Shown here: in pieces, positions 38,479 to 49,566 of the stretch | Position numbering within the stretch: the first letter of the stretch is position 1 | How the letters are laid out: each line of letters opens with the position of its first letter | NCBI RefSeq assembly: GCF_029626265.1 | Contig: NZ_JARUBN010000001.1 | Coordinates: forward strand, 2,666,001-2,730,000 | Length of the DNA stretch: 64,000 bases | Source: Micromonospora sp. WMMD1102 | GTDB taxonomy: Bacteria > Actinomycetota > Actinomycetes > Mycobacteriales > Micromonosporaceae | Reading direction: 5' to 3' | Position numbers and translations under genes: made by a program | The notes under the pieces: model-generated | What the model saw: only the letters and a program-made list of their open reading frames with translations | The model's database searches: none | What the model was told of the DNA's origin: nothing

Positions 38479-38787
38479 CCCGCGGCTGCCGCTCGCCGAC
38501 GACGCGGCGGCCTGCGCCGACCGCGGTCCGCCGCCGTCCGACCGGCCGTGCCGGGTGACCGGCACGCGATTGTGTCCGCGGAGCGGAATTCACATAACAG
38601 GGCGCTGACCCGACCGGAATGCAAGCGTTCAGTCGGTAATCCTACCGATTGACTTCGCCGTCTTGTGCTGCCGCAACCCGGACCGCATTCACCGGTTGGA
38701 CCTACTGACATCCCACACTCCAGGACCTGGTCGACGGCTGCGGTCGACCAGGTGGAACGGGCAGAGCCCCGGAAGGAGCGATGACAG
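38479..38787. other. Intergenic region before aminotransferase/Pls operon
   Basis: About 309 bp without a gene. From about 38570 it is less GC-rich than its surroundings and probably contains the promoter of the aminotransferase-synthetase pair. A TTGACT hexamer lies at 38649-38654 but no convincing -10 is at the right distance. An inverted repeat at 38630-38651 is listed separately. The ribosome site GGAAGGAG (38771-38778) precedes the aminotransferase start. Confidence 0.5.
38630..38651. promoter_or_regulatory. Inverted repeat, possible operator of the Pls-type cluster
   Basis: Arms CAGTCGGTA (38630-38638) and TACCGATTG (38643-38651) pair at eight of nine positions around a 4-base loop, and overlap a TTGACT hexamer that could be a -35 element. 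The position, about 140 bp before the aminotransferase start, fits an operator for a dimeric regulator. No regulator gene is adjacent. Confidence 0.4.
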
Positions 38788-40116
38788 GTGCGCGGAGCGG
38801 CGGGCGCGGACGAGAGTCGTATTTTCGAACGTAGGGAATCGGCGGTACGGAGCTACTGCCGTCGATTCGACTGTGTATTCGAAACGGCGGAAGGAAGCGT
38901 GGTCCGGGACGTCACCGGTCGCGAGTACCTCGATTTCGTCGCCGGTGCGGGATCGCTGAACTACGGGCACAACGACCCCGACATGCGGGCGGCGCTGATC
39001 GCCCATCTGGAACAGTGCGGACTCGCGCACAGCCTCGACCTGTCCAGCTCGGCCAAGAGCGAGTTCCTCGCCGCGTTCGAGTCGCTGGTGCTGCTGCCCC
39101 GCCGGCTCGACTACCGGGTGCAGTTCACCGGGCCGACCGGGGCGAACGCCGTCGAGGCGGCCCTCAAGCTGGCCCGCAAGGTGACCGGTCGGAGCAACGT
39201 CGTCGCCTTCACCAACGGCTTCCACGGCGTCTCGCTGGGCGCGCTCGCGGCGACCGGGAACCGGCACCACCGGGTCGGTCCGCAGCTGCCGCTGTCCGGG
39301 GTGACCCGGATGCCGTACGACGGATACCAGGGAGCCGGTGTCGACACCGCCGACCTGCTGGAGCGGATGCTGCGGGATCCGTCCAGCGGACTGGACGCGC
39401 CCGCCGCGATCATGCTGGAGACCGTGCAGGGCGAGGGCGGCCTCAACGTCGCCTCGGCCGCCTGGCTGCGGCGGATCGCCGAGCTGGCCCGGGACAGCGG
39501 CGCACTGCTGATCGTCGACGACGTGCAGGCGGGCTGCGGGCGTACCGGCACGTTCTTCAGCTTCGAGCCGTACGGGATCGTTCCGGACCTGGTCGTACTC
39601 TCGAAGTCGATCTCCGGGTACGGCCTGCCGATGGCGCTGCTGCTGATCCGCCCCGAGTACGACGTCTGGCAGCCAGGCGAGCACAACGGCACGTTCCGGG
39701 GCAACGTGCACGCCTTCGTCACCGCCGGGGTGGCGCTGACGAAGTTCTGGGCCGACGCCGACTTCACCGCCGACGTAGCCCGCCGGGCCGACCTGCTCGC
39801 ACGCGGGCTGGCCGAGGTGGCCGACTCGGTGCCGGGCGCGGTGCCGAAGGGACGCGGGATGATGCGCGGCGTCGACGTCGGCTCCGGGGAGCTGGCCGCC
39901 ACCATCACCCGGCGCTGTTTCGCCGAGGGTCTGATGCTGGAGACCGCCGGTCCGTACGACCAGGTGGTGAAGGTGCTGGCGCCGTTGACCACCGAGGACG
40001 AGCAGCTCCGGCACGGTCTCGACATCCTGCTGGCGGCGGCCCGGGGTGTCGACCGGCGGCCGGACGTCGGACCGGAGCGGGACCTGCGCGGCTCTTCCGG
40101 CCTGGTGCCCGCGTGA
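38788..40116 (+). CDS. Class III PLP aminotransferase, diaminobutyrate-2-oxoglutarate type
   Basis: This 442-residue enzyme of the ornithine/diaminobutyrate aminotransferase family has the internal PLP lysine in VLSKSISGYG (Lys273), FTGPTGANAVEAALKLAR for phosphate binding, and IVDDVQAGCGRTG containing the cofactor-binding Asp. The match to EctB/Dat-type enzymes predicts conversion of aspartate semialdehyde and glutamate to L-2,4-diaminobutyrate. GTG 38788 follows GGAAGGAG by nine bases; an ATG at 38781 is in another frame and closes after 17 codons. It overlaps the Pls-like gene by 4 bp, so it almost certainly makes that enzyme's monomer. Confidence 0.9.
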   Translation: MRGAAGADESRIFERRESAVRSYCRRFDCVFETAEGSVVRDVTGREYLDFVAGAGSLNYGHNDPDMRAALIAHLEQCGLAHSLDLSSSAKSEFLAAFESLVLLPRRLDYRVQFTGPTGANAVEAALKLARKVTGRSNVVAFTNGFHGVSLGALAATGNRHHRVGPQLPLSGVTRMPYDGYQGAGVDTADLLERMLRDPSSGLDAPAAIMLETVQGEGGLNVASAAWLRRIAELARDSGALLIVDDVQAGCGRTGTFFSFEPYGIVPDLVVLSKSISGYGLPMALLLIRPEYDVWQPGEHNGTFRGNVHAFVTAGVALTKFWADADFTADVARRADLLARGLAEVADSVPGAVPKGRGMMRGVDVGSGELAATITRRCFAEGLMLETAGPYDQVVKVLAPLTTEDEQLRHGLDILLAAARGVDRRPDVGPERDLRGSSGLVPA

Positions 40117-43100
40117 CGGGGCCGGCCCCGGTGACACCCCGGGAGGCGGCCACGGTCGCGCCCCGTACCCCGACCCCGGACATCCGCCCCGACCGCCCCG
40201 GTCCGGTGCTGACGGCACAGGGCGCGGACAACCGGGTTCGCTGGCGGCCGGGTGAGCGCCTGCACCATCTCTTCGAGCAGCGGTGCGACCGGTTCGCCGC
40301 CGAGGGCGACCCGGGGCACCTGGCCGTGGACGACGGCGAGCGCAGGCTGACCTTCGCCGAACTGGACGCCCGGGCCAACCAGTTCGCCCGGCTGCTCCGG
40401 GCCCGTGGCGTACGCCCGGGGGACCGGGTCGGGCTGCTGCTCGACCGGTCGGCCTCCGCCTATCTGGCCATGCTCGCGGTTTCCAAGATCCATGCCGTGT
40501 ACGTCCCCGTGGACGCCGGTTTCCCGGCGGATCGGATCGGCTTCGTACTCTCCGACGCAGGTGTCGAAACCGTCGTCACGCTCGGCAGCCTGGCCGACCG
40601 GCTCGACGGCCTCCCCGGCACGGTGATCCTGCTCGACACCTCCCCGGACCTCGACCACTACCCGTGCCACCGCATCGGGCCGCACGAACTCCGGCGGGGC
40701 GAGGTCGGGCGGGACGAACTCGATCCGGACGATCCGGGGCCCGGCGGGCGCGACCTGGCCTACCTGATCTACACCTCCGGCAGTACCGGCCGGCCCAAGG
40801 GCGTCGCCATCGACCAGGCGAACATCTGCAACTTCGTCCGGGTGGCCGTGGAGTGTTACGGGCTGCGTCCGGAGGACCGCGTCTACCAGGGGATGACGAT
40901 CGCCTTCGACTTCTCGGTCGAGGAGATCTGGGTGCCGCTGGTCGCCGGCGCGACGCTGGTGCCCAGCACCGCCCCCGGGGCGCTGGTCGGCAGCGACCTG
41001 GCCGACTTCCTCGCCCGCAACCGGGTCACCGCGCTCTGTTGCGTGCCGACGCTGCTGGCCACGATCGAGGAGGAGCTGCCGCAGCTGCGGTTCGTGCTGG
41101 TCTCCGGCGAGGCGTGCCCGGCACGGTTGGTGGACCGGTGGCACCGGCCGGGACGTACGCTGCTGAACGTCTACGGACCGACCGAGACCTCGGTCACCGC
41201 CACCTGGAGCCGGCTGGAGCCGGGCCGGCCGGTGACGATCGGGGTGCCGCTGCCGACGTACTCGGTGGTGATCCTGGATTCCGCGCAGCGGCTGCTGCCG
41301 GTCGGCGCGACCGGCGAGATCGGGGTCGCCGGGATCGGCCTCTCCCCGGGGTACGTCAACCGGCCCGACCTGACCGCCCGGGCGTTCGTCCCGGACACCG
41401 TCGGCATCCCGGACAACCCGTCGGGACGGATCTACCGGACCGGGGACCTGGGCCGGATCACCCCGGACGGACAGCTCGAATACCTGGGCCGGATCGACAG
41501 CCAGGTGAAGGTGCGGGGCTACCGGATCGAGCTGACCGAGATCGAGTCGGTGCTGCTGCGGCTGCCGGAGGTGGCCCAGGCGGCGGTGACGACGTACCAG
41601 CCGGAGCCCGGTGTGGTCGAGCTCGCCGCCTTCTACACCCGCCGGGGTGGCGCGGACGCGCTGGATCCGGCGGCGGCACTGGCCGCGCTGCGCGGCCGGC
41701 TGCCCGGCTACATGGTGCCGGCATACCTGGAGGAGTTGCCGGAGCTGCCGACGCTGCCCAGCGACAAGGTGGACCGCAAGCGGCTGCCGGCGCCGTCCGG
41801 GCCACGCACGCTGCCGACCACGCCGCTGGTCGCACCGGTCGGCAAGACCGAGTCGGCGCTGGCGGACCTCCTCGCCGACCTGCTGCGGGTGGACCGGGTT
41901 TCGGTCCGGGACGACTTCTTCACCGACCTCGGCGCCGACTCGCTGGTGATGTCCCGGTACTGCGCCCGGCTGCGCGAACGGCTGCGCGTCGACGTGTCGA
42001 TAAAGGACGTGTACCTGCATCCGACCGTGCGTGCCCTCGCGGTCGTCGTCGCGGCGGAAGTCCCGCCGGCACCGCCCGAACCGGCGCGTCCGGCCCACCG
42101 CGTCCCGAGCGATCTCGAATGGTACGGCTGCGCGGTGTTCCAGACCCTCTTCGGCCTGGGGTACGTCGTGCTGCTCGCCGCGGTGGTACTCACCGGCTAC
42201 AACTGGATCACCGACGGCAGCGGTGCGGCCGGATTCGCGCTGCGCTCGCTGGGCTTCGGGGTGGCCTGGTTCGTGGCCCTGGCGGTGCTGCCGGTGGCGC
42301 TGAAGTGGCTGCTCGTCGGGCGGTGGCGGGCCGGCACCTTTCCGATCTGGGGGTTGCGCTACCTCCGGTTCTGGGTGGTGAAGCGGATGATCCGGGCCAA
42401 TCCGCTGGTCCTCTTCGCCGGATCGCCGGTCTACAACCTCTACCTGCGGGCGCTGGGCGCGAAGGTCGGCCCGGGTGCGCTGGTGCTGTCCCGCTCGGTG
42501 CCGGTCTGCACCGACCTGGTCGAGATCGGTGCCGGGACCGTCGTCGGCAAGGGGGTGAGCTTCTCCGGTTACCGGGCCGAGGCCGGCTGGATCACCACCG
42601 GCCCGGTCCGGCTGGGCCGGAACGCGAACGTGGGCGAGGGCTGCGTGCTCGACCTCGACACCGTACTCGGCGACGGCGCGCACCTCGGGCACGCCTCGTC
42701 GCCGCGCGCCGGGCAGGTCGTACCGGCCGGAGCGCGCTTCCACGGCTCACCGGCGGTACCCGGCGGCAGCGGCAATCCGGCCCCGGAGCCCCGACGCTGC
42801 TCGGCAGCCCGCCGGGGTGCCTACGGCGTCGTCCAGCTCGCCGGCCGGGTCGTGCTGGACACCCAGCTACTCGTCGTACTCGCCGCGCTCGCCTTCGCGC
42901 TGGACGTCAGCACGGTCCCCGGGTCGACGCTGATGTATCTCGGCGGATTCCTGCTCGCTGCCCTGTTGGTGCTGGCGGTGCCCCGGCTGGCGAACCTCTT
43001 CCTCACCGCCGACCGGGTCTACCCGCTCTACGGCTGGCGGTGGATCTGCTACCAGACCGTCTCCCGGTTCAGTAACGTGCCGTTCTTCAACCTCCTCTTC

Positions 43101-44198
43101 GGAGACAGCTCGTACGTGGTCGGCTATCTCCGGGCGGTCGGCTGGCGATTCCGGCAGGTACGGCAGACCGGCTCGAACTTCGGCTGCGGGCAGAAGCACG
43201 ACACGCCCTTTCTCTGCGAGGTACGCGGCGGGGTGCTGGTCTCCGACGGGCTGTCGATGGGCAACGCCCGCTACTCGCCCAGCTCGTTTGCGCTGTCCCA
43301 GGTCACCATCAACGCGGAGAACTTCCTCGGCAACCGGATCATCTTCCCGGCCGGCGCCCGGGTGGGCGACGACTGCCTGCTGGCGACGAAGGTGATGGTG
43401 CCGATCGACGGCCCGGTCCGCTCCGGCGTCGGGTTGCTGGGGTCGCCGCCGTTCGAGATCCCCCGCTCGGTACGCCGGGACACCGCCTTCGACGCGTACC
43501 GGAGCGGGGACGAGTTCCGCCGCCGGCTGGCCCGGAAGAACCGATCGAACGTCTGCACCATGGGCTGGTACCTGCTCAGCGGCTGGCTGCTCTTCCACCT
43601 CGCCATCCAGATCGTGGTACGGGTGGAGGGCATCCACGACGGTGCCCGGCCGAACCTCTGGACGTTCAGTGCCGGAATCGTCCTCGCCGTGCTGACGATC
43701 GTCGGCTACTCGGTGCTGGTGGACTGGCTCTGCCTCGGTTTCCGCCGGCTGCGCCCGCTGCACTGCTCGATCTACGACCCCCGGTACTGGCGGCACGAGC
43801 GGTACTGGAAGCTCACCGGGGTCGGGCATCTCGGCCTGTTCAACGGCACCCCGCTCAAGCCGATGTTGCTGCGCCTGCACGGTGTACGGGTCGGCCGGCG
43901 GGTCTTCGACGACGGCTGCGGGATGCCGGAGCGGACCCTGGTGGAGATCGGCGACCACTGCACCCTGAGCGAGGGGTCGACGCTGCACTCCCACTCGCTG
44001 GAGGACGGGTCGTTCAAGACGGATCGGATCCGGCTCGGTAGCGGCTGCTCGGTCGGCACGGGTGCCCTGGTGCACTACGGCGTGGAGCTGGCCGACGGGG
44101 TGCTGGTGGCGCCGGACTCGTTCGTGATGAAGGGCAGCAGCCTGCCGTCCGGCACCGTCTGGCGGGGCAACCCGGCCCGCCAGGTGCCGGCGGGATAG
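40113..44198 (+). CDS. Membrane-bound NRPS of the Pls (epsilon-poly-lysine synthetase) family
   Basis: This 1,361-residue synthetase has an adenylation domain (about 35-560) with YTSGSTGRPKG (219-229), substrate-anchoring Asp266 in AFDFSVEE, NVYGPTE (352-358), VKVRGYRIE (465-473) and A10 Lys552; a carrier domain with phosphopantetheine Ser610 in LGADSL; then three membrane-helix pairs (about 670-733, 912-958, 1150-1211), each followed by a soluble left-handed beta-helix-like domain with hexapeptide repeats. This A-T-(TM2-C)x3 design is that of Pls, in which the C domains ligate free amino acids to the carrier-bound monomer and the chain leaves through the membrane. No thioesterase is present. 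GTG 40113 overlaps the aminotransferase stop, pointing to poly-diaminobutyrate as product (inference). Confidence 0.92.
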   Translation: MTGPAPVTPREAATVAPRTPTPDIRPDRPGPVLTAQGADNRVRWRPGERLHHLFEQRCDRFAAEGDPGHLAVDDGERRLTFAELDARANQFARLLRARGVRPGDRVGLLLDRSASAYLAMLAVSKIHAVYVPVDAGFPADRIGFVLSDAGVETVVTLGSLADRLDGLPGTVILLDTSPDLDHYPCHRIGPHELRRGEVGRDELDPDDPGPGGRDLAYLIYTSGSTGRPKGVAIDQANICNFVRVAVECYGLRPEDRVYQGMTIAFDFSVEEIWVPLVAGATLVPSTAPGALVGSDLADFLARNRVTALCCVPTLLATIEEELPQLRFVLVSGEACPARLVDRWHRPGRTLLNVYGPTETSVTATWSRLEPGRPVTIGVPLPTYSVVILDSAQRLLPVGATGEIGVAGIGLSPGYVNRPDLTARAFVPDTVGIPDNPSGRIYRTGDLGRITPDGQLEYLGRIDSQVKVRGYRIELTEIESVLLRLPEVAQAAVTTYQPEPGVVELAAFYTRRGGADALDPAAALAALRGRLPGYMVPAYLEELPELPTLPSDKVDRKRLPAPSGPRTLPTTPLVAPVGKTESALADLLADLLRVDRVSVRDDFFTDLGADSLVMSRYCARLRERLRVDVSIKDVYLHPTVRALAVVVAAEVPPAPPEPARPAHRVPSDLEWYGCAVFQTLFGLGYVVLLAAVVLTGYNWITDGSGAAGFALRSLGFGVAWFVALAVLPVALKWLLVGRWRAGTFPIWGLRYLRFWVVKRMIRANPLVLFAGSPVYNLYLRALGAKVGPGALVLSRSVPVCTDLVEIGAGTVVGKGVSFSGYRAEAGWITTGPVRLGRNANVGEGCVLDLDTVLGDGAHLGHASSPRAGQVVPAGARFHGSPAVPGGSGNPAPEPRRCSAARRGAYGVVQLAGRVVLDTQLLVVLAALAFALDVSTVPGSTLMYLGGFLLAALLVLAVPRLANLFLTADRVYPLYGWRWICYQTVSRFSNVPFFNLLFGDSSYVVGYLRAVGWRFRQVRQTGSNFGCGQKHDTPFLCEVRGGVLVSDGLSMGNARYSPSSFALSQVTINAENFLGNRIIFPAGARVGDDCLLATKVMVPIDGPVRSGVGLLGSPPFEIPRSVRRDTAFDAYRSGDEFRRRLARKNRSNVCTMGWYLLSGWLLFHLAIQIVVRVEGIHDGARPNLWTFSAGIVLAVLTIVGYSVLVDWLCLGFRRLRPLHCSIYDPRYWRHERYWKLTGVGHLGLFNGTPLKPMLLRLHGVRVGRRVFDDGCGMPERTLVEIGDHCTLSEGSTLHSHSLEDGSFKTDRIRLGSGCSVGTGALVHYGVELADGVLVAPDSFVMKGSSLPSGTVWRGNPARQVPAG

Positions 44199-44307
44199 CC
44201 GCGCGACCCGGCCCGCCAGGTGTCGGCGGGATCGTCGCGGGACTCGCGCCGTGCAGTTCGGACGGTGCCGGCCCGGCCACTGCTCGCGGGACTGCTCGCG
44301 GAGAGCG

Positions 44308-46091: not shown

Positions 46092-46412
46092 ACGTCCGCC
46101 CGGCGCCGAATCCGCCCGGACCGGCAGCGCGGAGCTTGCCGGCGGGTCGGACCGGTTCGGGCCGGCAGCGCGGGTTTGCCGACCGGCCTCCGATCCCGGT
46201 GCACCGACTCCCCGGTTGTGGGGCCGTTCCCGGTCGGGACGGGACAATGCCGGTGAGTTCGTTCTGGTTTGATACGGCGGTAGCGGTGCGCAGGACGACC
46301 GTACCGCCGCCCGCTGCCGGCGCTCGTCGCGACAACTTCCCGTTCGTACGCAACCGACGACCGGCAAACCGCGTCTTGTCAGATGTCGTCCAGATCTGCG
46401 TGAGGGGTGCCG
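46092..46412. other. Intergenic region, no gene seen
   Basis: About 320 bp between the GT39 gene and the efflux adaptor. It contains a short direct repeat (CCGGCAGCGCGG at about 46121 and 46163, each followed by TTGCCG) and an AT-richer patch around 46255-46275, but no open reading frame with convincing codon use and no confident promoter. The ribosome site for the adaptor (GAGGGG) is at 46403-46407. Confidence 0.4.
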
Positions 46413-47420
46413 GTGCGAAGGCGATTACTGCTGCGTTCGGGTGTGCTCGTGTTGCTCGTCGGTGCGGCCACCGCGTGCACGGCGTCCGAGCCGGAGGCCG
46501 AGACTCCCGGCCTCGCGGCCCGGGGCACCACCCTGACCACCGCCAAGCCGGCTCGGCAGAACCTCGACAATCGGGTCAGCCTCTCCGGCAAGGTCACCAT
46601 CAATCCCGTCTTCGGAGTGGTCGCCCCGGTCACCGGCCAGATCCGTTATCGCGACGTCGAGCAGCCGAGGAGCACGCCGACCAAGCCGACCCGGGTGGCG
46701 AGCATCTGGGCCAAGGGCAGGTCGCACCGGGTCGACGTCCCGGCCGGAGCCGTCTTCGCCGGTCGACTCCTGGACGACCGGTCCAACGTCGCGGTGGGGA
46801 TGCCGGTGGTGTCGGCGAAACGAATCGGCTACGGACTGGTCGCGGAGATCGACGGCGCTCAGGCGTACCAGATCTCCGACTCGGTGGCCACCGTGCAGGC
46901 CCAGATCAAGAACGGGCCCGGTCCGTTCGCCTGCAAGGTTCTCGGCACCATCGCCGCGCTGCCGGCCGGCACGATCCCGGACCCGCCGGCCCCGGAGCCG
47001 TCGACCGACCCGTCCGCCGGCCCGGGGGCACCACCTGCCCCACCGCGACCGGACCCGGGGCGGCCGGTCGAACCGTCCGAGCCGACCGGCATGCGACTGG
47101 TCTGCGCGGCGCCGTCGAACGTCAAACTGATCAACGGTGCCGTCGCCACCCTGGAGGTGGTGACCGCCCGGGCGAAGAACGCGCTGGTGCTCCCGGTCGA
47201 GGCCGTCGCCGGCGGGCAGGGCAGCGGCAAGGTGGACGTGGTCGGCCCGGACGGCACCCGGGAGACCCGGGACGTGGTGCTCGGGCTCAGCGACGGCAAG
47301 GTCGTGCAGATCAAGTCAGGACTGACCGGGGACGAGACGGTCGCCGTCCCCGGCCCCAACCTGCCGCCGGCCAAGCCGGCACAGCCCGGCGGCCCCGCCG
47401 ACCCGATGGGCGGGAAATGA
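46413..47420 (+). CDS. Efflux adaptor lipoprotein, MacA/HlyD-like, with early TTA codon
   Basis: This 335-residue exported protein has a lipoprotein-like signal (VGAATAC, Cys about 22), a membrane-fusion-type beta-barrel and hairpin, a Pro-rich insert (about 192-222) and a C-terminal domain with VLPVEAVAG and GDETVAV strands, as in MacA-like adaptors of Gram-positive bacteria. Start chosen at GTG 46413, five bases after GAGGGG; GTG 46407 overlaps that site. Codon 5 is TTA (46425-46427). It overlaps the ATPase start by 4 bp, forming a three-gene MacAB-like exporter. Confidence 0.85.
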   Translation: MRRRLLLRSGVLVLLVGAATACTASEPEAETPGLAARGTTLTTAKPARQNLDNRVSLSGKVTINPVFGVVAPVTGQIRYRDVEQPRSTPTKPTRVASIWAKGRSHRVDVPAGAVFAGRLLDDRSNVAVGMPVVSAKRIGYGLVAEIDGAQAYQISDSVATVQAQIKNGPGPFACKVLGTIAALPAGTIPDPPAPEPSTDPSAGPGAPPAPPRPDPGRPVEPSEPTGMRLVCAAPSNVKLINGAVATLEVVTARAKNALVLPVEAVAGGQGSGKVDVVGPDGTRETRDVVLGLSDGKVVQIKSGLTGDETVAVPGPNLPPAKPAQPGGPADPMGGK

Positions 47421-48250
47421 CGGCGCTGCTGGAACTGGACGGCATCACCAAGACGCTGAAGGGCCAGCGCGCGCCACGGACGATCCTCGACGGCGTCGAC
47501 CTGACCGTCGACGGTGGAGAGAGTGTGGCGATCGTCGGTCGGTCCGGCTCGGGCAAGAGCACCCTGCTCAGCCTGATCGGCCTCTTCGACCGGCCGGACG
47601 GCGGTCGCTATCTGCTCGGCGGCCGGGACATCAGCCGGCTGCCCGAGCGCCGGGCGGCGGCCCTGCGCAGCGCCGAGTTCGGCTTCGTGTTCCAGCGGTT
47701 CTTCCTGCTGGGGCATCTCACGGCCGCGCAGAACGTGGCGATGGCGCTGGTCAACGGGCAGGGCTGGCTGCCGCGCCGCAAGCGCCGGGCCCGCACCATG
47801 GCCGCCCTCGACCAGGTCGGCATCGCGCACCTGGCGAAGCACCGTCCGGCCCGGCTCTCCGGCGGTGAACAGCAGCGGGTGGCCGTCGCCCGCGCCCTGG
47901 TCCGGGAACCCCGCCTGCTGCTCGCCGACGAGCCGACCGGCGCGCTGGACACCGAGACCGGCAACCTGGTGATCGAGGTGATGCGCTCGGCCACCGACCG
48001 GGGCTGTGGGCTGATCCTGGTCACCCACGACTGGGACCATGCCAACAAGATGAGCCGGGTGCTGCGGCTCAGCGACGGATTGCTGCGGCCCGCCGCCACG
48101 ACCGATCCGGACGAGGCGTGGACGCCGGAGGCCGCCCCGACCGGCTCCTCCGCACCGGTGCCGGCCGGGGCTGCCGGGCCGGTGGACGTGCCGGCCGGGA
48201 GCGGGTCGGTCAGTGCGCCGTACGCCGGCCAGGAAGGGAAGGTCCGGTGA
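47417..48250 (+). CDS. ABC exporter ATPase, MacB type
   Basis: This 277-residue ATPase has Walker A GRSGSGKS, the signature LSGGEQQR, Walker B LLLADEPTGALD and switch THD. A disordered Ala/Pro/Gly tail of about 50 residues follows the domain. ATG 47417 overlaps the adaptor stop, and its own stop overlaps the permease GTG. It powers the FtsX-type permease of this exporter. Confidence 0.93.
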   Translation: MTALLELDGITKTLKGQRAPRTILDGVDLTVDGGESVAIVGRSGSGKSTLLSLIGLFDRPDGGRYLLGGRDISRLPERRAAALRSAEFGFVFQRFFLLGHLTAAQNVAMALVNGQGWLPRRKRRARTMAALDQVGIAHLAKHRPARLSGGEQQRVAVARALVREPRLLLADEPTGALDTETGNLVIEVMRSATDRGCGLILVTHDWDHANKMSRVLRLSDGLLRPAATTDPDEAWTPEAAPTGSSAPVPAGAAGPVDVPAGSGSVSAPYAGQEGKVR

Positions 48251-49566
48251 TCCGGCTCTCCGGCAGGTTCCGGTCCGCGACGATCATCGGCCTGCAGGGC
48301 ATCCGGGCCCGGAAGATGCGTACCTTCCTGTCGATGGTGAGCCTCTTCCTCGGCGTACTGGCCGTGGTGGTGGTGCAGGCCGGCGCCGAGACCCTCGAAC
48401 GGGCCCAGTTGGAGAACCTCGCGCTACAGGTGGGCAAGGACGGCACCCGCCAGGCGTACCTGCCGGGAACCGCGCAGAGCGTCCAGACCAGCATCGACAC
48501 CCTGGCCAACCGGCCGGACGCGGTCGCGATCGCCACCCGGCAGGCGATCGTCGGCGAGCCGGGAGTCGCCCCGGTCAACCCCGGCGGAGCACCGTTCGAC
48601 CAGCCTGGCGGCTACGGCGGTCCCGGCGGCCCGATGTACTGCGACCAGTACGGCTGCCGGCCCACGTCACCCGGCGGCGACACGGCCGCCCCGGTTTCCG
48701 GCCAGGCGATCGAGCTGATCCTGAACACGTTGACCGGCGACATCCGCCAGTTCAAGCCGTTCCGGCCGGTCTCCGGGCGGTGGCTGGACTTCGCCTCGGC
48801 GCCGTCCCTGGCACCCGGGCTGGTGCTCAACGAGGAGGCGGCGAAGGGCTTCAGCCGGCACCAGGTACCGGCCGAGATGCGCATCGACGGCGCGACCGCC
48901 AACCCGACGCCCCGGATCATCGGCGTGGTCGACGACGGCAACCCGCAGCCGGTCGCCTACGCCCGCGCCGACGAACTGGCCACCTGGCTGCCACCGGCCA
49001 CCGGCACCGGCGAGTTCGGTCCGGGACTCCAGGTGATGATGGCTCCGGGCAGCGGCGAGCTGGAACGGCTGCTGGTGCTCCGGCTCACCGCGACCGGGGT
49101 ACCGGCCGACCAGATCCACTTCGAGACGATCCAGGCCCGCAAGGAGATCGCCCGCGACCTCGCGCTGATCCGCTGGATCTTCCTCGGCATGGCGAGCCTG
49201 GTGCTGCTGATCGGGGTGGCGGGCATCCTCAACGTCGGGCTGGCGACCGTGGGGGAGCGGGTCGAGGAGTTCGCGCTGCGCCGGGCGGTCGGCACCTCGC
49301 GACTGCTGCTGGCCGGCATCGTCCTGGCCGAGACCCTGCTCACCGGTCTGCTCACCGCCGCGGCCGCCATCGGGGCGTCCGCGCTGGCCCTGAGCGCGGC
49401 CGGCACACTCCTCGCCGGCCGGGCGCCGTTCCTGGCGGACATGGTGTTCCCGTGGCAGGCGGGTGTCGCGGGCGTCGTCGCCGGCCTGGTGGCCGGGCTG
49501 CTCGGCGGACTCATCCCGGCCGTCCGGGCCGCCCGCATCCCGATCGCCACCGTCATGCGGGCCTGA
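48247..49566 (+). CDS. ABC exporter permease, MacB/FtsX type
   Basis: This 439-residue permease has one helix near the N-terminus (about 27-45), a large extracytoplasmic MacB-type core domain with a Gly/Pro-rich, cysteine-containing loop (PMYCDQYGCRP), and three C-terminal helices with the FtsX signature GERVEEFALRRAVGTSR. It functions as a homodimer with the preceding ATPase and adaptor. GTG 48247 overlaps the ATPase stop. The paired cysteines suggest a disulphide in the outer domain. Substrate unknown. Confidence 0.92.
   Translation: MIRLSGRFRSATIIGLQGIRARKMRTFLSMVSLFLGVLAVVVVQAGAETLERAQLENLALQVGKDGTRQAYLPGTAQSVQTSIDTLANRPDAVAIATRQAIVGEPGVAPVNPGGAPFDQPGGYGGPGGPMYCDQYGCRPTSPGGDTAAPVSGQAIELILNTLTGDIRQFKPFRPVSGRWLDFASAPSLAPGLVLNEEAAKGFSRHQVPAEMRIDGATANPTPRIIGVVDDGNPQPVAYARADELATWLPPATGTGEFGPGLQVMMAPGSGELERLLVLRLTATGVPADQIHFETIQARKEIARDLALIRWIFLGMASLVLLIGVAGILNVGLATVGERVEEFALRRAVGTSRLLLAGIVLAETLLTGLLTAAAAIGASALALSAAGTLLAGRAPFLADMVFPWQAGVAGVVAGLVAGLLGGLIPAVRAARIPIATVMRA

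Follow-up and report, generated by a model that had tools for sequence, protein, structure and literature searches.

An ectB-coupled Pls-type synthetase gene in Micromonospora sp. WMMD1102, a candidate two-gene operon for gamma-poly-L-2,4-diaminobutyrate

Synthetases for poly-2,4-diaminobutyrate (poly-Dab) that are accompanied by a pathway Dab transaminase have already been published (PMC8117764, PMC8225329). The locus described here, a transaminase gene overlapping a gene for a Pls-type synthetase in Micromonospora sp. WMMD1102, is therefore ordinary in kind. It lies in a stretch of 64,000 nucleotides (hereafter the window; C1:2666001-2730000 of the 8.9-Mb genome). PldA of Streptomyces celluloflavus, which makes gamma-poly-L-Dab, is the same type of synthetase with the same expected monomer, and the Fig. 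1C legend of that report, on the gene contexts of Dab synthetases, includes dat (diaminobutyrate-2-oxoglutarate transaminase) as well as ask (aspartate kinase) (PMC8117764). Going by that legend, the window shares an adjoining Dab transaminase with pldA-type loci; it has Phe at position 2 of the adenylation pocket and lacks an adjoining aspartate kinase. PddA-PddD of Streptoalloteichus hindustanus, for gamma-poly-D-Dab, likewise comprise a membrane single-module synthetase, a pathway transaminase (PddC) and a precursor enzyme that is translationally coupled, but the gene coupled in that pathway is pddB, for the racemase, and the pathway includes an aspartokinase, PddD (PMC8225329). The window locus certainly differs from that pathway in having no dedicated aspartate kinase and no coupled racemase. 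In the open-licence literature searched we found no description of ectB coupled to a Pls-type gene, the Skermanella pairs described below included.

We read the pair as a self-contained two-gene operon for gamma-poly-L-Dab, with a probability of about 0.82. The EctB-type transaminase would transfer the amino group of glutamate to aspartate semialdehyde, giving L-Dab, as is established for EctB. The adenylation domain would activate L-Dab and load it onto Ser610, as suggested by its pocket and by the neighbours of related genes in other genomes. Three membrane-anchored beta-helix domains would then join Dab iteratively through the gamma-amino group, and a short polycation would be released without a thioesterase, both steps being known for Pls-type enzymes. 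EctB-type enzymes are familiar from salt-stress metabolism; Dab goes to ectoine in ectoine makers and would go to polymer here. Polymer identity, length and antimicrobial activity are what we infer.

Both frames are open over the limits given in Table 1. The transaminase scored 593.6 bits against the NCBIfam EctB model TIGR02407 (curated equivalog cut-off 552.2), and its three best PDB sequence matches are Dab transaminases (9s1q, 9s1p and 6rl5). Lys273, in the motif SKSISG, is near the place of the pyridoxal phosphate (PLP) lysine, which is Lys274 in P. lautus EctB (PMC6915088). The first-pass annotation of this DNA, made from the sequence alone, had called the enzyme a class III aminotransferase of the Dab type; the assignment held, and the type can be narrowed to EctB. 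No other EctB-grade transaminase was found in the host genome, where the next-best match is 37% identical and scores 118.9 bits.

The synthetase reached 629 bits against the Pls/PosA model TIGR02353 (cut-off 423.1) and is the only match above that cut-off in the host. Its Pfam matches are AMP-binding, AMP-binding_C, PP-binding and Hexapep, with no condensation or thioesterase domain among them. A structure model of residues 570-1361, built from 36 aligned sequences (the window's own and 35 chosen from 78 relatives), had a mean predicted local distance difference test score (pLDDT) of 89.4 and a predicted template modelling score (pTM) of 0.90, and showed three helix pairs with a left-handed beta-helix domain after each. 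A fold search with this model returned 35 matches at E <= 0.001, each of partial coverage, including the maltose and serine acetyltransferases of the hexapeptide acetyltransferase type. Of 58 polymerising-region columns that are near-invariant (at least 93% conserved in 63 other aligned sequences), 57 are kept in the window. The enzyme thus has the marks of the Pls/PosA family: a single adenylation domain with a carrier, a terminal threefold repeat of helix pair and soluble domain, and the pocket Asp and Glu. The architecture given in the first-pass annotation is in this way borne out by TIGR02353, Pfam and a confident model, and the carrier serine it named is correctly placed. The GTGA overlap it had noted is likewise real, and the junction string, CGCGTGAC, is identical in all six loci compared (the window and L041-L045).

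The pair is conserved, with its ectB-pls order and its overlap, among congeners and also in a second genus. In the congener G032 the two flanking genes, a DUF6351 gene and a PMT-like gene, adjoin, and the matched window positions break off at 38479 and resume at 44299. Exactly the pair is thus missing from the same site in this genome, so the two genes look to be the complete unit. Among the same-genus genomes listed, five gave a synthetase match and two, G032 and G092, gave none; in G092 (L139) the PMT-like gene was matched and the DUF6351 gene was not, leaving no clean empty site. The upstream DUF6351 and downstream PMT-like genes were matched in all four congeners compared (L041-L044); in L045 and L066 neither was matched next to the pair. 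Further downstream, at 46407-49566, lie HlyD-like (by eye), ATP-binding cassette (ABC) ATPase and FtsX/MacB-like genes, which were matched in L042 and L043 (of L041-L044) and in the pair-less locus of G032 (L138). We considered a larger cluster that would take in the DUF6351, PMT-like and HlyD-like/ABC/MacB genes and rejected it, as all of these genes remain in L138 without the pair and the first two were unmatched next to it in L045 and L066. The last of these loci, from genome G091, is an ectB-pls pair of another genus in which the synthetase frame is broken; G091 has two further Pls-type matches.

No export, degradation or immunity gene lies within the unit as bounded by G032, and the role of such polymers has been called unclear (PMC9606270). 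Both points would fit an enzyme whose products are very short Dab oligomers, or which attaches Dab to some other molecule, for a purpose that is not antimicrobial. We consider this unlikely, since the synthetase has the full module with all three helix pairs and soluble domains, and keeps its near-invariant residues, as in homopolymer makers.

Read by the standard ten-position scheme, the adenylation pocket is DFECLSVVTK (Table 1). Eight of its residues (all except S331 and K552) match numbered positions of PosA (217, 218, 221, 260, 280, 304, 312 and 313; PMC10522769), and their offsets from the pocket Asp are identical to those in PosA (0, 1, 4, 43, 63, 87, 95 and 96). D266 and E270 stand at PosA 217 and 221, the pocket Asp and Glu for the alpha- and side-chain amines. 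Comparison with Pls-family enzymes, proposed in the first-pass annotation, therefore gave the Asp and Glu of Pls and PosA together with PosA spacing. Pls (epsilon-poly-L-lysine) and PosA (delta-poly-L-ornithine) have the same architecture and the same Asp and Glu at positions 1 and 3, and differ at position 2, which is Phe in the window, Ala in Pls and Met in PosA (PMC10522769). Phe at this position is shared by poly-diaminopropionate (poly-Dap) synthetases (PMC10522769). One of them, the beta-poly-L-Dap synthetase of Streptomyces albulus PD-1, is also of the same architecture (PMC4668381, PMC10522769), but its precursor enzymes are NjxA (beta-replacement) and NjxB (ornithine cyclisation) in place of a Dab transaminase (PMC4668381).

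We then compared pockets with gene neighbours across genomes. Loci were picked from larger match lists by score, length and family spread before their neighbours were known, and a counted neighbour was a Dab transaminase of at least 150 bits no more than 3 kb away. The count covered 77 loci whose pocket could be read, the window being one of them; L067 and L068 (copies of L042 and L043), L066 (broken frame), L128 (no C-region match) and eight loci without an adenylation domain were left out. A Dab transaminase lay within 3 kb in 28 of the 33 loci with a DFEC or DFEA pocket and in none of the 44 with other pockets (Fisher p 3e-16, uncorrected for relatedness and optimistic because related sequences are not independent). 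Together with the pocket itself and the lack of an ectoine synthase match in the host (below), this association supports poly-Dab as the predicted product, the suggestion made in the first-pass annotation. Plasmid loci were gathered later and stand outside the 77-locus count. Plasmid pSR-1 of Skermanella rosea (NZ_CP086112.1) has the same pocket as the window and an ectB gene. Here and in S. mucosa pSM-2 (NZ_CP086108.1) the order is again ectB-pls, with EctBs 69-70% and synthetases about 54% identical to those of the window; the two annotated genes are separated by a gap of about 130-145 bp, with no overlap, and behind them come a hypothetical gene and the genes for an S41 peptidase and a porin.

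Several observations speak against a gamma-poly-L-Dab operon. Five of the 33 DFEC/DFEA loci (L085, L117, L118, L125 and L123) have no counted transaminase; L123 is cut by a contig end, with an aspartate kinase and a transaminase fragment present. In the Paenarthrobacter plasmid locus L141 the pocket is identical, and no transaminase is annotated within 5 kb. The Shinella (L142) and Aureimonas (L143) plasmids carry the related pocket DFEALGTVTK with no annotated transaminase, and under four-letter pocket grouping both would count against the link between pocket and transaminase. There is no dedicated aspartokinase beside the window synthetase, unlike in the published poly-D-Dab pathway (PddD), and the single aspartate kinase above cut-off in the host genome is far from the window. 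Finally, a poly-Dap adenylation domain also weakly activated Dab, with Dab polymer undetected (PMC4668381), and the pocket alone therefore does not settle the product. The synthetase might use Dap, ornithine, lysine or a mixture while EctB serves another need, a view that gains from the Phe common to poly-Dap synthetases (PMC10522769) and from a related domain that activates more than one diamino acid (PMC4668381). We regard it as quite improbable, because the window pocket is unlike both the Lys class (DAESIGTVVK) and the DFEY class and because a Dab transaminase was nearby in none of the 44 other-pocket loci.

The EctB assignment raises the question of ectoine. Of the ectoine pathway, we found an EctB-type enzyme and no ectoine synthase (EctC): the EctC model matched none of the seven family genomes that have ectB beside pls (the host included, and G091 with its broken synthetase), while the same model matched six of seven control genomes of another family. 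An ectoine locus was rejected on these grounds (EctA was not searched for). Because the host gave no ectoine synthase match, its EctB has no obvious other use.

With L-Dab as the expected precursor, a D-polymer would require a racemase encoded elsewhere. Gamma-poly-D-Dab, as in S. hindustanus, belongs to the same monomer class, and poly-D-Dab synthetases do exist in actinobacteria (PMC8225329). In the published cases, though, racemase and synthetase genes are translationally coupled (PMC8225329), and the host genome has one DapF-family match, the usual one, outside the window (PddB is weakly similar to DapF; PLP-type racemases were not searched for), which makes a D-polymer very improbable. 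Comparing coordinates by eye, we saw no DapF-like gene near a synthetase in the family of G438, of whose 85 matching genomes 67 were searched. G657, G702, G713 and G838 carry extra DapF-like genes; that of G702 shares a contig with the synthetase at a distance of about 1.9 Mb, and those of the other three genomes are on contigs other than that of the synthetase, where nearness is not judgeable.

GTG 38788 is the transaminase start nearest the AAGGAG (Table 1), with an in-frame stop just upstream. Six relatives have an in-frame start two codons upstream of this position (ATG in five, GTG in L045). At 38781-38788 the window has one extra base compared with them, just after its upstream ATG, which is therefore out of frame; the extra base is either a strain difference or a sequencing error. 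A decaying cluster, in which this base lowers or abolishes transaminase translation in the window strain, is highly improbable, given that the in-frame GTG has a plausible ribosome-binding sequence and aligns to the relatives' codon 3, and that the rest of both genes is open.

Table 1. Features of the ectB-pls pair and its surroundings, in window positions
Feature	Position	Strand	Basis
Stretch wholly absent in congener G032 (L138)	38480..44298	+	About 157 bp there between matches to the same two flanking genes
AAGGAG, ribosome-binding-like, 9 nt before GTG 38788	38773..38778	+	Sequence reading, alignment with six relatives
EctB-type L-2,4-diaminobutyrate--2-oxoglutarate transaminase, 442 aa, GTG start	38788..40116	+	TIGR02407, PDB matches
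GTGA, stop/start overlap of ectB and synthetase genes	40113..40116	+	Sequence; kept in 6/6 loci compared
Pls/PosA-family homopolymer synthetase, 1361 aa	40113..44198	+	TIGR02353
Adenylation domain, about residues 62-558	40296..41786	+	Pfam AMP-binding 62-414, AMP-binding_C 476-552
Pocket residues D266 F267 E270 C309 L329 S331 V353 V361 T362 K552 (DFECLSVVTK)	40908..41768	+	Motif alignment
Carrier domain, Ser610	41856..42041	+	Pfam PP-binding 582-643; serine = residue 610
Helix pair 1, about residues 667-734	42111..42314	+	Structure model, hydropathy
Soluble domain C1, left-handed beta-helix, approximate limits	42333..42755	+	Model, fold search
Helix pair 2, about residues 898-961	42804..42995	+	Model, hydropathy
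Soluble domain C2, left-handed beta-helix, approximate limits	43017..43460	+	Model
Helix pair 3, about residues 1133-1207	43509..43733	+	Model, hydropathy
Soluble domain C3, left-handed beta-helix, approximate limits	43761..44186	+	Pfam Hexapep, model

To place the synthetase within its family we built a tree of the carrier and polymerising region (67 rows) and one of the adenylation domain (46 rows, leaving out the eight domain-less proteins, the broken row and 12 near-copies); both are quick trees without bootstrap, with several long rows and with 20 later loci left out. The polymerising tree has two branches (split support 100%). The window's branch (31 rows) contains the window with its same-family DFEC/DFEA relatives, eight proteins without an adenylation domain from two further actinobacterial families, L085 (DFEC, another family), L105 (Lys pocket) and L063 (DFEY). 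The other (36 rows) holds 25 of the 26 Lys-pocket and eight of the nine DFEY proteins, together with a single DGES and a single DSEC protein and L096, a locus with the pocket DFECLSAVTK in which the synthetase gene is followed by those for the transaminase and an aspartate kinase, in that order. The adenylation tree groups by pocket instead, and the window's branch as one clade, a group named beforehand from the polymerising tree, is rejected there (approximately unbiased test, p-AU 1e-51). The Pls/PosA family is a mosaic, because the two trees conflict; adenylation domains would have been exchanged between branches within it. In polymerising-region identity to the window, L105 (51%) is level with Dab-pocket relatives outside the window's close group (47-51%), while the Lys-pocket proteins L071, L058 and L084 reach 31-33%. 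L105 itself carries the Lys-type pocket DAESIGTVVK on its window-branch module and has a second adenylation match just downstream.

The published identities to a coryneform Pls are 32, 33 and 31%; in our own set, identities to six Lys-pocket proteins span 31-36% for the other branch, and the window's branch spans 27-32%. The published values fit the other branch slightly better, which weakly suggests that the published poly-Dab synthetases fall outside the window's branch. The EctB-type transaminase and the polymerising branch possibly set the window apart from both published poly-Dab systems.

The transaminases form two TRANSAMINASE lineages in an unrooted tree, in which the window's EctB grouped with six family relatives (98%). 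The two Skermanella EctBs (69-70% identical) stand beside this group at an unresolved fork, and those of L122 and L126, encoded after the synthetase, group with six ectoine-pathway EctBs (95%), all from one family. Twelve others, L096 among them, make up a separate lineage, and the two members scanned miss the EctB cut-off (356 and 368.5 against 552.2 bits). Two distinct transaminase types stand beside Dab-pocket synthetases. The tree needs only one label change (support 99%). Two recruitments of EctB are possible, and a single recruitment, with the sampled ectoine EctBs nested inside, would also fit.

Taken together, these data allow a broader picture, which we offer tentatively and rate at a little short of even odds. 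The window's branch would be a second, uncharacterised branch of isopeptide polymerases serving as a plug-in: a module found with Dab-, DFEY- or Lys-type adenylation domains or with none, supplied with Dab by differing transaminase lineages (EctB here, Dat type elsewhere, with EctB perhaps acquired more than once), forming a unit that is whole or absent at a fixed site, and with the ectoine enzyme EctB diverted to polymer.

Pls/PosA matches are widespread. At E 1e-60 they occur in 95 of 200 sampled family genomes, and at E 1e-100 in 105 of 394 genomes of the class and in 85 of the 297 from the family of G438. Among plasmid records, 510 match the synthetase anywhere, and in 16 the match covers 80% or more of it; in our reading, many of the 510 surely match through the adenylation domain only.

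Other arrangements were seen in the same survey. The synthetases of L046-L056 have about 300 extra C-terminal residues (for example L046:11291-12238 and L047:11668-12705, + strand), and in the two members scanned this part matched Pfam ACPS (7.7e-5 and 1.6e-5) and NCBIfam HetI (1.7e-12 and 2.6e-9, below the HetI cut-off). It looks like a fused 4'-phosphopantetheinyl transferase, and these enzymes may load their own carrier domain. The Shinella and Aureimonas plasmid loci have a phosphopantetheinyl transferase gene closely downstream of the Pls-type gene. In L144, on the Pseudonocardia autotrophica plasmid NZ_AP018921.1, the Pls-type synthetase has the unusual pocket DLERVSTVTV, without the usual final Lys in the alignment, and a TauD/TfdA-family gene adjoins. 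Seven loci (L076, L077, L080, L082, L083, L088 and L103) encode Pls-type proteins without an adenylation domain, and all seven have a separate downstream adenylation gene with the pocket DIWQSTADDK and an SbnA-like gene; a TauD-like gene was seen by eye in L076 and L088. The polymerising module of such loci may work with the separate adenylation protein. The SbnA-like query from L088 matched none of 12 DFEY loci, and we dropped the idea that DFEY marks a poly-Dap class; because this query (a single one, other Dap genes being possible) went unmatched, DFEY is kept as a pocket name only. One DFEY-pocket locus, L092, in which the SbnA-like gene was unmatched, has an M1-family peptidase gene nearby.

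For poly-Dab, the link between pocket and transaminase yields a genome-mining rule that is simple to apply. Few polycations of this type occur in nature, and they serve, or are under study, as food preservatives, antivirals and cell-penetrating carriers. A poly-Dab source that consists of two genes and brings its precursor enzyme along would be easily transferred and tested. That adenylation domains and polymerising modules have separate histories suggests that in nature the choice of monomer can be uncoupled from polymerisation, a point of relevance to how chain length is set.

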